Positions 58,058 to 62,125 of a stretch of DNA of 64,000 nt are shown here, one piece after another (the stretch's first letter is position 1; the number at the start of each line of letters is the position of its first letter). Made by a program: the position numbers and the translations under genes. The stretch comes from Halothiobacillus diazotrophicus (GTDB lineage Bacteria; Pseudomonadota; Gammaproteobacteria; Halothiobacillales; Halothiobacillaceae), in the NCBI RefSeq assembly GCF_001663815.1, contig NZ_CP016027.1, forward strand, positions 558,001 to 622,000, in the 5' to 3' direction. The notes beneath the pieces were generated by a model, which was given only the letters and a program-made list of their open reading frames with translations, was not told the origin of the DNA and searched no databases.

Positions 58058-58741
58058 TCAGGATTGCGGCTCGATCGCCTTGCCGCCACCATAGGATCCG
58101 TGGGCCACGTGCTTCAGTATCCCCCGCAGTTGTGCTTCCGGCCGCGCGCCCGAAAAGTAAAAGGGCAACCCATCGTCCGCCTGGAAGACAATGATCGGGA
58201 TCGCGTAGAGATTGTCGCCCTGAAGAATGGACAAGTTTTCCAGCAACATCGATTCCGATTTCTTAGATACATGCTTTGCCGGCTCGATACCGCCGCCACT
58301 GCCGCTATCCAGGAATCCGTAGTTGTTCTCGCTTTCCTGAAACGCCTTCAAGGGATCCTTGGCCTGCAGAATCGCAGCGGCCTTAGTGGTTGACGACGGT
58401 GTCAGCATGCCGACCGGCACCCAGCGGAACTGCAAGTTCGGCATATCCTTGCGAATCTTTTCAAACGAATCGTAAACACGGTGACAATAGGGACAGTTCG
58501 GATCGAAGAACATGTAGACGATCTGGTCACCCGTACCATCCTTGATCCATGAAGCATCCGCGAGATCAGCCATGAGACGAACAGCCACCTGACGGCTCTT
58601 GGGCACGGAGATCGTATCGGTTTGTGTCGCGGAAATAGCAACCTGCGTCTGAAGAAGCAGGGCAGCAAGCATCAAGAAAAGGACGGATAGGCGCATTGAC
58701 AGAAGACGCCGGCTAAACAACGAAAGGGACAAAACACGCAT
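58058..58741 (-). CDS. Periplasmic thiol:disulfide interchange protein, DsbG-like
   Basis: This 227-residue protein has a hydrophobic signal sequence (VLFLMLAALLLQTQVAISA), then a short N-terminal region and a thioredoxin domain with FFDPNCPYCHRVYDSF. The CPYC motif and the later IPIIVF cis-proline resemble DsbC/DsbG isomerases. The usual N-terminal dimerisation domain is much shortened. The start is unclear: ATG 58741 gives an extended n-region, ATG 58696 a compact one. The gene is 94 bases downstream of the coiled-coil gene on the same strand. Confidence 0.82.
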   Translation of the reverse strand: MRVLSLSLFSRRLLSMRLSVLFLMLAALLLQTQVAISATQTDTISVPKSRQVAVRLMADLADASWIKDGTGDQIVYMFFDPNCPYCHRVYDSFEKIRKDMPNLQFRWVPVGMLTPSSTTKAAAILQAKDPLKAFQESENNYGFLDSGSGGGIEPAKHVSKKSESMLLENLSILQGDNLYAIPIIVFQADDGLPFYFSGARPEAQLRGILKHVAHGSYGGGKAIEPQS

Positions 58742-58776
58742 CAATCAAAAACCCTGAATGGAATGAGTAGGCAAGG

Positions 58777-58835: not shown

Positions 58836-60152
58836 TCACACGGGCGGCTTTTTACTGAGATCCAGATCGTCATCCGAAAGCGGCGGCGCATCATCAGGCG
58901 CCTCAATACTGGATTGCTGCTTGGCGATTTCCGCATCAAGCAAGGCATCAATATCGTCGAGATTCAGCTCGAAGGGCAATTCTCCATCGGCTGAAGCCGG
59001 TGGATCCGGAAGTTCGATCTCGTCCAGGTCGATTTGGGCTACCGGTTTGGCAGGTGTATCGGCCTCAGCGGTTTCGTCCTCGGCAAGAAGGGCCTCCGTT
59101 TCCTGTTCGTCCGCAATGACTTCACCCAGATCATCGGAAAATAGCACCGCCTCATTTGCGGAAAACTCCGGGGCGGGAGAGGATTCCGACGCTGCAATCG
59201 ACTCACCTGAGACCACATCGCCCTGCGTGGGTTCCATTTCGGCCTTCGGTTGTGCGGGCGCCGGTACGTTTGCGGCCGCAATCAGCGCATCGATATCATC
59301 GACATCGGCGTTTTGGGCTGGCTGCTGGTTGTCCGGCTGAGGCTGGGTTTTTTCGGAGATCGGATTCTCTGGTTGAGCGGGTGGCTGGGGCGTCGGCGCT
59401 GGCGCAGCCTGCGCAATGTCCTCTTCACCGAGAGTGATCCCGTCGACCAGCGCGGCATCTGCCTGCTCCATGGCCGCATCGTGATCCATCCCGTTATCAA
59501 TCGCCTGGAGATAGATGAGGGTGCGCAGGATCTGCGGCACCCGGTAATCCGCTTCAACCCCAAACTTACGACCATATTCGCTGACAATGATGCTGACCGA
59601 TTTCAGGGCCTCGGCCAGTTGTGCGGAACGTTCAGCTTCAGCCTTTTGCAAGGCGACAAAGTCGGTTTTCAACTGAGCCAGCTTTTCCTCGGCTTGCTCA
59701 TTGCTGGTTGCCACGACGGGTTCCGGCTGATTGGCGCGAAAGAGGGCTGCGATCTGGTGCAAATCCGTATGACGAATGCCCATGACGGCACGAACCGCAC
59801 TTTGCAGCCCCTTCGGGGAAGGCTCCAGCCAAGGGGCCACCAGTTCGTTGATCAACTCCTCGCTACGCATTTGGTAGTCATCCAGCAGCTCATCCCCGAT
59901 CGAGGCTTCCGGCAACAGGGCCGCCATGTGCTGACTAAAAGTGTCAGTCGCCGACTCGGCCAGATTATCTCGCTCGTCGATGAGCGCGCGCGCCGCCTGG
60001 ATTCTCCGCCTGCGGCCTCGCCAGGCAAGAATGCCGACCACCAGTGCGAAGAGGAGGAACAAACCCGCCAGCTCGGAGGCAAGCACGGCCCAGTCCGCAC
60101 TCAGAAACCAGGAGAAACCGGAAGCCGCAGAATGGGTATCGGGCGTAGTCAT
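58836..60152 (-). CDS. Membrane-anchored coiled-coil protein with acidic tail
   Basis: This 438-residue protein is not one I recognise. One transmembrane helix (about residues 22-44) is followed by RGRRRR, placing the rest in the cytoplasm. Residues 50-235 are helical with a coiled-coil stretch near 150-185. From 245 on it is Pro/Gln-rich and very acidic, with two copies of DDIDAL (285-290 and 399-404) and a related LDEIEL (376-381). The start overlaps the VWA gene stop by ATGA, so the two are translationally coupled and probably work together. Confidence 0.8.
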   Translation of the reverse strand: MTTPDTHSAASGFSWFLSADWAVLASELAGLFLLFALVVGILAWRGRRRRIQAARALIDERDNLAESATDTFSQHMAALLPEASIGDELLDDYQMRSEELINELVAPWLEPSPKGLQSAVRAVMGIRHTDLHQIAALFRANQPEPVVATSNEQAEEKLAQLKTDFVALQKAEAERSAQLAEALKSVSIIVSEYGRKFGVEADYRVPQILRTLIYLQAIDNGMDHDAAMEQADAALVDGITLGEEDIAQAAPAPTPQPPAQPENPISEKTQPQPDNQQPAQNADVDDIDALIAAANVPAPAQPKAEMEPTQGDVVSGESIAASESSPAPEFSANEAVLFSDDLGEVIADEQETEALLAEDETAEADTPAKPVAQIDLDEIELPDPPASADGELPFELNLDDIDALLDAEIAKQQSSIEAPDDAPPLSDDDLDLSKKPPV

Positions 60153-62125
60153 GCTGTTTTAGCCTCGGCAAGCAATTGATTGATTGTGATTTTCGTGGAT
60201 CGGCGCCAGAGAAGCAGACCAATGATGATCACCAAAGCCAGACCGATGTTGACGGCACCGATCAACAGCCAATTGGGACCTTTACGCGGCAACCGTGCTG
60301 TCTCATGCACCTGGTGGGCGTCAGGGTGTTCGGATTTCGGGGCAGTGGAAACCAAGGCAGGAACCGACACCGGCAATAACTGCAACCTCATGGATCGCTC
60401 GGTTGTCAGCTCAGCCGTCAGCGTTCCGCTGAACTGGCAGTTACGATTCACCGGCGTAGGAACAGGCACGGTCATTGTGGTCTTGTCGAGCACCCAATGG
60501 ACCTTTTCGATCCTCGGTCCGGCAGGTGAGGGAACAACATGCCCTTCTGCGCTGCCATGACTATCCACAGCAGAACCCGTTGGGGATGCTTCACAAGTCC
60601 ACTGACCATCGACCACGCTTCGCTCCGGCATGACGACCGTAGGGTCCTGGGTAATTTCCAGCACCCGAACCGGCTGATTTTTAGCCGGAACCCTGGCCGG
60701 CTTCTGACCATGCCCGTCAACATGAGCCGGGGTGACATGGGCGGGCGTCTCAAGCGCGGTCGAGCCTGAAGGGGCGTTTGCGACTGCCGGGCCTGTAGCT
60801 GCCGCAGAAACGGGTTCGGTAACGGTTCGTGATTTAAACGAGATCGGCGCCTGGGGGGCCATGGCAAAGTTCTGTCGCCAGGTTCGCTGGAAGGTGGGGC
60901 TCTCGGCCGTCGCCACCAGGCTGTATACCCCAGCAGGATCGATCAGATTCAACTGATAATCGAACTTTCCATCGCCGCCGACAATGTCTGGATCGGCGCC
61001 GCGGTCATTCAGGGGAATTGACTGGATGACCTCATCACCCCGTCGCTCCTGAACCACGGCCTTGATGACCTGCGTCAGATCGGGTTGCGTGACCGGCACA
61101 TCATGATTGGTGAGTTGCAAGGTGCTGTTTATCTGCTCGCCCGGATAAACGCGCGTCGGAATCGAAGTCACGTTCAGTTTCAAGTCTGTGATGATGAGTG
61201 CCCGATTGTCCGGATCCTTGGCGCCAATGATCTGCCATTCCCCCGGCTGTGGTTGGTCGATGGTAATGAGGTCACGCCCCCCACTGGCATCCCAGCGCCA
61301 GTTCGGCAAACTGCGGCTGGTTTGTTCCGTCACCAGCGTCCCATCCGGCGTTTTGAGACTGTTCGGCGTATCCGCCTTGTCCCGGAAAGCCAGAATGGTC
61401 AGCTCCTTGACGGACTTGTCGACGATGAACTTATTGTCCTTGAGGGGCAGGCCGTCACGCGGCGCTGCCGCCTCGAAGATCTTGAGAAAGGCACGCTGGA
61501 GGGCCTCGGCCGAATCGGCGGCAACGAATATGCCGCCGGTTCGATCGGCGATCTCCCGCAATAGCTTGCTGTCTGCATCTTTCGACAAGGCGATGGTATG
61601 AACACGAATATGGGCGCTCTGTAAACGCGGAATGATCTTATCGAGCAGTCGTTGCTGGGCCTGTTCATTGACCGCTTTGTCCTTGGAAATATCGACCATA
61701 CCGTCCGAGAGCAGGAGCATGTTCCGATCGGTCCCCGTATCCCAGGAGGCCGCCGCCGCAGTCAGGGCATCCGGGATATCGGTAAACGGCTCGTTGGATC
61801 GGATTTTTCCGGCCGTGTTGTGTACTCGGGTCTTGGTCAGATCGGAGGCGGGCTGCGTACTCAAGACGGATGTGACCCGATCACCGAAAAACCAGATGCC
61901 GATGCGCGCGGATGGGGGGAGCAGATCGCCGAGTAACCGTAATGCAGGACGACGCAGATTCGTGGGGTCGGTCTGCTTCATGCTGCCGGACACGTCGATC
62001 AGGACATGGAGTTCCGGGGGCGTTTGCGCTTGAACCGACAACACGGGGAGCACAAGTAGGAACAGCAGTCCGGTAAGACGTTTACGGCTCAAGTATTTCG
62101 TCCTCATCTCATGCGATACTGGCAT
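60149..62125 (-). CDS. Periplasmic VWA-domain protein with C-terminal anchor (TIGR03503-like)
   Basis: This 658-residue protein begins with a signal peptide ending near VLSVQA. The VWA domain follows at about residues 38-220, with an intact MIDAS (LIDVSGSMKQTDP, threonine near 115, and LLLSDGMVDIS). A beta-rich central part with LPNWRWDASGGRDLITIDQP looks like the TIGR03503 family. A Pro/Ala-rich linker, a further beta domain and one transmembrane helix (LLIGAVNIGLALVIIIGLLL) with a short basic tail close it. ATG 62125 has GAGGG upstream; ATG 62107 is an alternative. Function is unknown. Confidence 0.8.
   Translation of the reverse strand: MPVSHEMRTKYLSRKRLTGLLFLLVLPVLSVQAQTPPELHVLIDVSGSMKQTDPTNLRRPALRLLGDLLPPSARIGIWFFGDRVTSVLSTQPASDLTKTRVHNTAGKIRSNEPFTDIPDALTAAAASWDTGTDRNMLLLSDGMVDISKDKAVNEQAQQRLLDKIIPRLQSAHIRVHTIALSKDADSKLLREIADRTGGIFVAADSAEALQRAFLKIFEAAAPRDGLPLKDNKFIVDKSVKELTILAFRDKADTPNSLKTPDGTLVTEQTSRSLPNWRWDASGGRDLITIDQPQPGEWQIIGAKDPDNRALIITDLKLNVTSIPTRVYPGEQINSTLQLTNHDVPVTQPDLTQVIKAVVQERRGDEVIQSIPLNDRGADPDIVGGDGKFDYQLNLIDPAGVYSLVATAESPTFQRTWRQNFAMAPQAPISFKSRTVTEPVSAAATGPAVANAPSGSTALETPAHVTPAHVDGHGQKPARVPAKNQPVRVLEITQDPTVVMPERSVVDGQWTCEASPTGSAVDSHGSAEGHVVPSPAGPRIEKVHWVLDKTTMTVPVPTPVNRNCQFSGTLTAELTTERSMRLQLLPVSVPALVSTAPKSEHPDAHQVHETARLPRKGPNWLLIGAVNIGLALVIIIGLLLWRRSTKITINQLLAEAKTA

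Follow-up and report, generated by a model that had tools for sequence, protein, structure and literature searches.

The subject of this analysis is a pair of neighbouring genes on a 64,000 nucleotide stretch of the Halothiobacillus diazotrophicus genome (contig NZ_CP016027.1, positions 558,001 to 622,000; the whole stretch is called the window below). The first gene codes for an envelope protein with a von Willebrand factor type A (VWA) domain, the second for a partner protein which is anchored in the membrane and faces the cytoplasm. On balance we consider it probable that the two proteins form a trans-envelope module of motility control and that the pair represents the VWA-bearing, partner-coupled long form of MotW, a swimming regulator described from Vibrio cholerae. 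Since many bacteria that swim share the pair, and since it is related to this Vibrio protein, it probably takes part in the control of the flagellum.

The pairing of the two genes is well supported. Carriers were defined by a TIGR03503 search of 274 Gammaproteobacteria genomes (the class sample), in which the VWA protein family was found in 78 genomes from 49 families; the same search of 14 control genomes gave no match, and in a phylum-level sample, the class make-up of which is not given, all 43 matching genomes of the 398 belonged to the class of the window. The partner lies downstream in 69 of the 78 carriers (directly in 68, and after 376 bases in G142), and the recurrence of the same two-gene order throughout a class-wide sample places the arrangement beyond chance. 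The other nine carriers comprise three where a contig ends (G130, G012, G225), one with the partner elsewhere (G071), one with an unrelated open reading frame upstream (G040) and four with no partner (G165, G090, G296, G033). Among 143 collected VWA-partner pairs the genes overlap by four bases in 62, and they overlap or abut in 106. An earlier note on this DNA had proposed a coupled transmembrane pair, had placed both open reading frames correctly with the partner starting in the VWA stop codon (the two share four bases), and had named homologues occurring mostly apart as the observation that would speak against it; adjacency in the 69 carriers and contact or overlap in the 106 pairs were found instead.

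During the collection L082 was dropped as a different VWA protein, the apparent VWA-partner fusion of G172 turned out to be an ordinary pair once it was read in the correct frame, and the weak partner match of G165 (2.2e-5) was dropped as it reads as flagellin-like. The upstream open reading frame of G040 is like the partner in topology alone, and the partner profile does not match it. In a Spongiibacteraceae genome L292 is a weak candidate (8.3e-4). The conservation of residues was read from four alignments: A1 (47 of 83 closed VWA frames) and A2 (69 of 75 partners), and A3 (71 VWA rows) and A4 (52 partners), both drawn from 80 loci and the window.

The VWA domain of the first protein was recognized by Pfam with 40.7 bits against a cut-off of 23.8. 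In the AlphaFold2 model (mean predicted local distance difference test score 86.4) it occupies residues about 37-220 and is followed by three beta domains at about 225-320, 325-435 and 485-590, which we read as immunoglobulin-like (Ig-like), and by a helix at 619-657; the signal peptide would be more natural if the protein started at the internal Met7. The metal-ion-dependent adhesion site (MIDAS) is complete (D44, S46, S48, T115, D141); both the intact MIDAS and the C-terminal helix seen in the earlier note are present. Conservation of the full site extends to 45 of the 47 homologues in A1 and to all 71 rows of A3, where only T115 and D141 are informative because the search pattern behind A3 already contains the first three residues. 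The VWA fold is close to that of BatB (3ibs, Z 19.2, root-mean-square deviation (rmsd) 2.0 over 170 residues), and the fold resembles many adhesive VWA domains. Both rounds of structure search with the VWA model matched generic VWA folds; these filled both result lists, and therefore the beta domains were barely probed. A PilY1 type was set aside as unlikely, the AlphaFold2 model being without a beta-propeller.

The partner begins with a membrane helix followed by RGRRRR, and its AlphaFold2 model consists of a helical bundle (61-141), a long helix (151-196) and two more helices (204-239), after which it is disordered. The model is confident mainly over the first 240 residues, and in the disordered tail short predicted helices cover both DIDAL motifs, the second at higher confidence. 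With 49 acidic and 6 basic residues in positions 241-438, the acidic tail of the earlier note stands, as do its single N-terminal helix and arginines; the one long coiled coil gives way to a bundle with several helices. Its topology, with the VWA protein outward and the partner inward, was borne out as a conserved transmembrane pair. Partner sequences vary widely (8-58% identity to the window partner), and E192 reaches 90% or more in A4. Partner length ranges from 141 to 952 residues (L159:7347-7769 and L253:8756-11611), nearly all of the variation being in the tail. Among 69 partners Pfam found no family in more than three members and NCBIfam none in more than five, SMC being the most frequent; Foldseek with the partner model returned nothing at E 0.001 or better, and the best hit of a further structure search (Z 7.3, rmsd 4.4, 85 residues) is in the range that helical bundles may give by common arrangement.

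The membrane helices of the two proteins each contain a conserved residue. The partner's Glu (Glu27 in the window) is the sole invariant column in the 52 partners of A4 and, besides M1, the only column at 90% or more in the 69 partners of A2; the Asn of the VWA protein (Asn626 in the window) is at 90% or more in the 47 homologues of A1. The Glu lies a median of 18 and the Asn a median of 15 residues upstream of the basic residues inside, and because of these distances both are placed in the outer half of the bilayer. To follow the two residues, 164 rows were collected, of which 153 were unique and 149 remained after dropping four (contig end or no membrane helix); 134 of these had an adjacent partner. 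Both residues are present in 121 of the 134 pairs, Asn is lost with Glu kept in 9, Glu is lost with Asn kept in 1 and both are lost in 3 (Fisher 0.002); for this count the G089 partner, whose Glu at residue 5 is outside the helix centre, was moved by eye to the class without Glu, and as first scored the numbers were 121, 10, 1 and 2 (Fisher 0.02).

Asn occurs in 122 of the 134 paired proteins versus 4 of the 11 VWA-type proteins without an adjacent partner (Fisher 5e-5). Of these eleven, L200, L219, L300 and L301 have the Asn and G090, L234, L257, G296, G033, L298 and L302 have none; for L298, L300, L301 and L302 the partner was sought in the neighbourhood rather than in the whole genome. Kept outside the count were G165 (no VWA), G071 and L248 (partner elsewhere), G142, L186 and L215 (contig ends), G040 and L250; taking G040 and L250 as partnerless gives 6 of 13 (Fisher 2e-4). 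In several VWA-type proteins without an adjacent partner (L298, L300, L234, L257, L200, L219) the cytoplasmic end itself is a long acidic tail, as though the partner's tail had been taken over. On the opposite strand upstream, L200 and L248 have a bactofilin-like gene (by reading).

The region after the VWA domain, comprising the first two beta domains, is homologous to TIGR03503, and BLASTP aligned the window protein to the strict member L293 with 30% identity over 271 residues (E 3e-26). The features of this family were found in the window protein: the homologous Ig-like region and, in the AlphaFold2 model, three beta domains with one C-proximal membrane helix. The strict members L293, L295 and L117 score 460, 435 and 417 bits. 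Just one of the 78 carriers exceeds the curated TIGR03503 cut-off and its protein is without VWA domain, therefore the long VWA-bearing form is the common form in the sample. The short TIGR03503 proteins, with 45-53 kDa as their estimated mass, have a layout that fits MotW, and a dnaQ-like gene adjoins them in five of the six short-type loci (L293, L294, L296, L297 and L299, not L295) and in L117. Next to the dnaQ-like gene stands an rnhA-like one in L293, L294, L297, L299 and L117, not in L296, and at L293 Pfam confirmed the exonuclease and RNase H neighbours. In V. cholerae, VC2233 is presumably dnaQ. VC2234, two tags from VC2232, is rnhA according to the available part of PMC6606805. MotW itself is VC2232, a protein of about 50 kDa with signal peptide, three Ig-like domains, one C-proximal membrane helix and a short positive tail; it is polar in a HubP-dependent manner, and its deletion reduces tumbling frequency and swimming speed (PMC8789113, available text). 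By layout and gene neighbourhood the short TIGR03503 proteins thus match MotW and are its putative counterparts.

The window protein shares with MotW and TIGR03503 the homologous Ig-like region, the signal peptide, the C-proximal membrane helix and the short basic tail, and five of seven short members have the membrane Asn as well. It differs from them in bearing a VWA domain, which the available text of the MotW paper does not mention (PMC8789113), in having an adjacent partner, none being read beside strict members, and in its gene surroundings: unlike most short members, it is not beside dnaQ. The statement of the earlier note that no described system has this composition is therefore superseded by the TIGR03503 homology and by the match of the short members to MotW (PMC8789113, in the part available). 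A literature search for TIGR03503 returned no paper, and in searches on VWA proteins, polar flagella and related subjects none of the listed titles and abstract openings pointed to this pair.

The flagellar link of the pair is likewise well supported. Of the class sample, 141 genomes have FliM, 141 have FlhF and 212 have PilM, a protein of the type IV pilus. FliM or FlhF was found in 75 of the 78 carriers versus 73 of the 196 non-carriers (odds ratio 42, Fisher 1e-21), and each of the 49 carrier families contains a flagellated carrier. Of the non-flagellar carriers the third, G225, is a 64% complete genome. The choice of motility as a phenotype to test, made in the earlier note, is apt. The gene context adds a few examples: downstream of the VWA gene, G033 encodes a transglycosylase, a histidine kinase, a sigma-54 response regulator, FliE and FliF; G089 has two partner paralogues without the membrane Glu (L276:4934-5983, plus strand; L285:4807-6162, minus strand), one after fliK-flhB' and one after cheY-cheZ; the gene for CheV was found downstream in G211 and, on reading, also in G071; an Hpt protein is near the module in G019. 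Downstream of the module, L119, L125, L171, L234 and L257 encode a response-regulator/TPR protein of about 550 residues (domains confirmed in L119 alone), which in four of the five loci is followed by a small kinase-like gene with an HDMKNSL box.

The acidic tail of the window partner contains VDDIDALI and LDDIDALL, which resemble the N-terminus of FliM. The FliM of the same genome starts with ILSQDEIDALLNG and reads LSQDEIDALLNG; its QDEIDALL is to be compared with DDIDALL of the tail. With [DE]ID[AS]L[LIF] as the pattern, the motif was found in 31 of 104 partner tails and in 16 of 89 outside the window's own family, the mean of 300 shuffles being 0.05 and their maximum 1; 45 copies occur in 21,144 residues of tails versus 3 in the 193,746 residues of 640 neighbouring open reading frames. 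FliM, a C-ring protein, has the motif at its N-terminus, whereas the partner, a membrane protein, has up to five copies within its disordered tail. The EIDAL motif of FliM is bound by FlhG. CheY binds it as well, according to the available text of PMC6946799. By this likeness of sequence the partner motif may also bind CheY or FlhG.

These observations suggest how the module might work. The VWA protein would carry its MIDAS-bearing VWA domain atop the three Ig-like domains in the periplasm, held by a one-helix anchor; the partner helix would lie beside that anchor, with the two conserved residues, Glu and Asn, facing each other in the bilayer's outer half, and the partner's helical domain and long acidic tail would form a cytoplasmic scaffold. 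EIDAL/DIDAL peptides like that of FliM are displayed by the tail in many species and could be binding sites for CheY or for FlhG, the regulator of flagellar number, and a metal-dependent VWA contact in the envelope could in this manner be signalled to the flagellar switch. We infer a direct contact of the two proteins, a polar location, a ligand outside and a target inside, and an effect on swimming. That the commonest form of MotW is such a two-protein device, with a MIDAS VWA/Ig ectodomain, an intramembrane Asn-Glu contact and a partner tail with FliM-mimic peptides, is put forward as a tentative possibility.

Several points weigh against the proposed long form of MotW and its function. The window protein scores 122.5 bits on TIGR03503, below the curated cut-off of 305.6, and because this cut-off was tested and is not reached the pair is not filed as a strict member. 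Strong partner matches (1e-10 or better) without TIGR03503 match occur in the class sample, only in G120, G137 and G253, and a profile of the VWA protein run on these three genomes found nothing. Ten selected loci of the phylum sample, eight from families outside the class sample, are without adjacent partner; six of them are short MotW-type and four VWA-type. The D-x-S-G-S pattern is absent in G062, G129, G204 and G245 among 84 loci, the other non-matches being G165 (no VWA), G230 (cut by the contig end) and G172 (wrong frame). As for the membrane residues, the Asn column is below 90% in A3, three clades have Glu without Asn, and L200 and L219 keep the Asn though a genome search found no partner; the short MotW-type proteins keep it in the proportion given above without adjacent partner, hence it may serve self-association. 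Kinship among the sequences inflates the Fisher tests on Asn and Glu, and those of co-occurrence ignore phylogeny. The FliM-like motif is missing from 73 of the 104 tails.

Among the other explanations, a complex with a general role in the envelope or in adhesion, found in free-living Gammaproteobacteria, survives best: the VWA domain would bind a ligand of the matrix or the cell wall, the partner would be an inner anchor, and lifestyle and ancestry would account for the flagellar link. We regard it as rather unlikely. It draws on the likeness to adhesive VWA domains, on G107 and G124 (listed as 99% complete), which keep the pair with FliM, FlhF and FlhA all absent, on the position of most loci among housekeeping genes (by reading) and on PilM, which is likewise commoner in carriers (71 of 78 versus 141 of 196 non-carriers, Fisher 4e-4), though less markedly so than the flagellar markers; the last three also count against a flagellar role. 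However, the presence of PilM makes no difference among flagellates, whereas in PilM-bearing genomes flagellar markers occur in 70 of 71 carriers versus 69 of 141 non-carriers, and the flagellar and chemotaxis neighbours in G033, G089 and G211 and the homology to MotW also speak for motility.

A sensor which feeds another cytoplasmic route, cyclic di-GMP (c-di-GMP) or a response-regulator/kinase pair, and touches motility indirectly, seems distinctly unlikely to us. A response-regulator/TPR protein does follow the module in G222, G062, G090, L234 and L257 (domains confirmed in G222 alone), with a small kinase-like gene in four of these five, but such gene order is found in few loci; and suppressors of motW map to VieS, a kinase of the c-di-GMP pathway, yet to FliG as well (PMC8789113, available text). 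A VWA protein of MoxR/Bat type, working with an AAA ATPase in protein or metal maturation, is highly improbable and this type was rejected: the VWA fold is close to BatB, and MoxR- and CoxE-like neighbours were named by reading in L250 and L298, but the window protein has other domains after the VWA domain, Ig-like domains and a partner of this kind are not known from the MoxR/Bat family, and neither the window nor the listed partner-bearing loci showed a MoxR-like gene beside the pair, judged from first residues with no profile search.

The partner may also be compared with MotV/ZomB (VC1909, in Vibrio and Shewanella), which acts on motor reversal and is described as having a single membrane helix near the N-terminus and about 230 residues of helical cytoplasmic sequence, a topology that the partner shares; MotV/ZomB differs in being encoded apart from MotW and is said to act separately, and the available text describes no FliM-like tail (PMC8789113).

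The pair is flanked in the window by an EttA-like ABC gene and by the DsbG-like thiol gene, which the earlier note had considered as a possible servant of periplasmic disulfides. The thiol protein contains CPYC and scores as DsbG-like with 98.5 bits, under the curated 124. Its gene recurs in only 5 of 79 clustered neighbourhoods, all from the window's own genus, and of the 71 homologues only 8 keep Cys511 and Cys563, the two cysteines of the VWA protein, which lie in its third beta domain; by these counts the gene was ruled out as a member of the module. Where the two cysteines are kept, a disulfide might play a part, and the DsbG-like neighbour with it. The positions of all features are collected below.

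Table 1. Features of the VWA-partner locus, in window positions
Feature	Position	Strand	Residues	Remarks
VWA gene	60149-62125	minus	658 aa	signal peptide, VWA domain, three beta domains, C-terminal membrane helix, short basic cytoplasmic end
MIDAS loop D44-V-S-G-S48	61982-61996	minus	44-48	site completed by T115 (61781-61783) and D141 (61703-61705)
TIGR03503/MotW-homologous region	60833-61450	minus	226-431	first two beta domains; E 1.9e-35 (NCBIfam)
C-terminal membrane helix of VWA protein	60203-60271	minus	about 619-641	conserved Asn626 at 60248-60250
ATGA shared by VWA stop and partner start	60149-60152	minus		four bases in common
Partner gene	58836-60152	minus	438 aa	N-terminal membrane helix, helical cytoplasmic domain, acidic disordered tail
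Partner membrane helix	60030-60098	minus	19-41	Glu27 at 60072-60074
Partner helical cytoplasmic domain	59436-59972	minus	61-239	conserved EY at 192-193
First FliM-like motif, DDIDALI	59280-59300	minus	285-291	
Second FliM-like motif, DDIDALL	58938-58958	minus	399-405	inside predicted helix 398-416
DsbG-like thiol gene	58058-58744	minus		neighbour only, outside the conserved module

If the pair is the long form of MotW, members of the MotW family occur in at least 49 of the gammaproteobacterial families sampled and have a conserved partner. MotW has been called specific to V. cholerae in a 2026 paper (PMC12918733, in the part available), and the long form would, if true, widen that range. Should the proposed mechanism be correct, a contact in the envelope would set the flagellar switch or the number of flagella directly, without chemoreceptor arrays, and the metal site, the membrane residue pair and the FliM-like motif would each be open to single changes.

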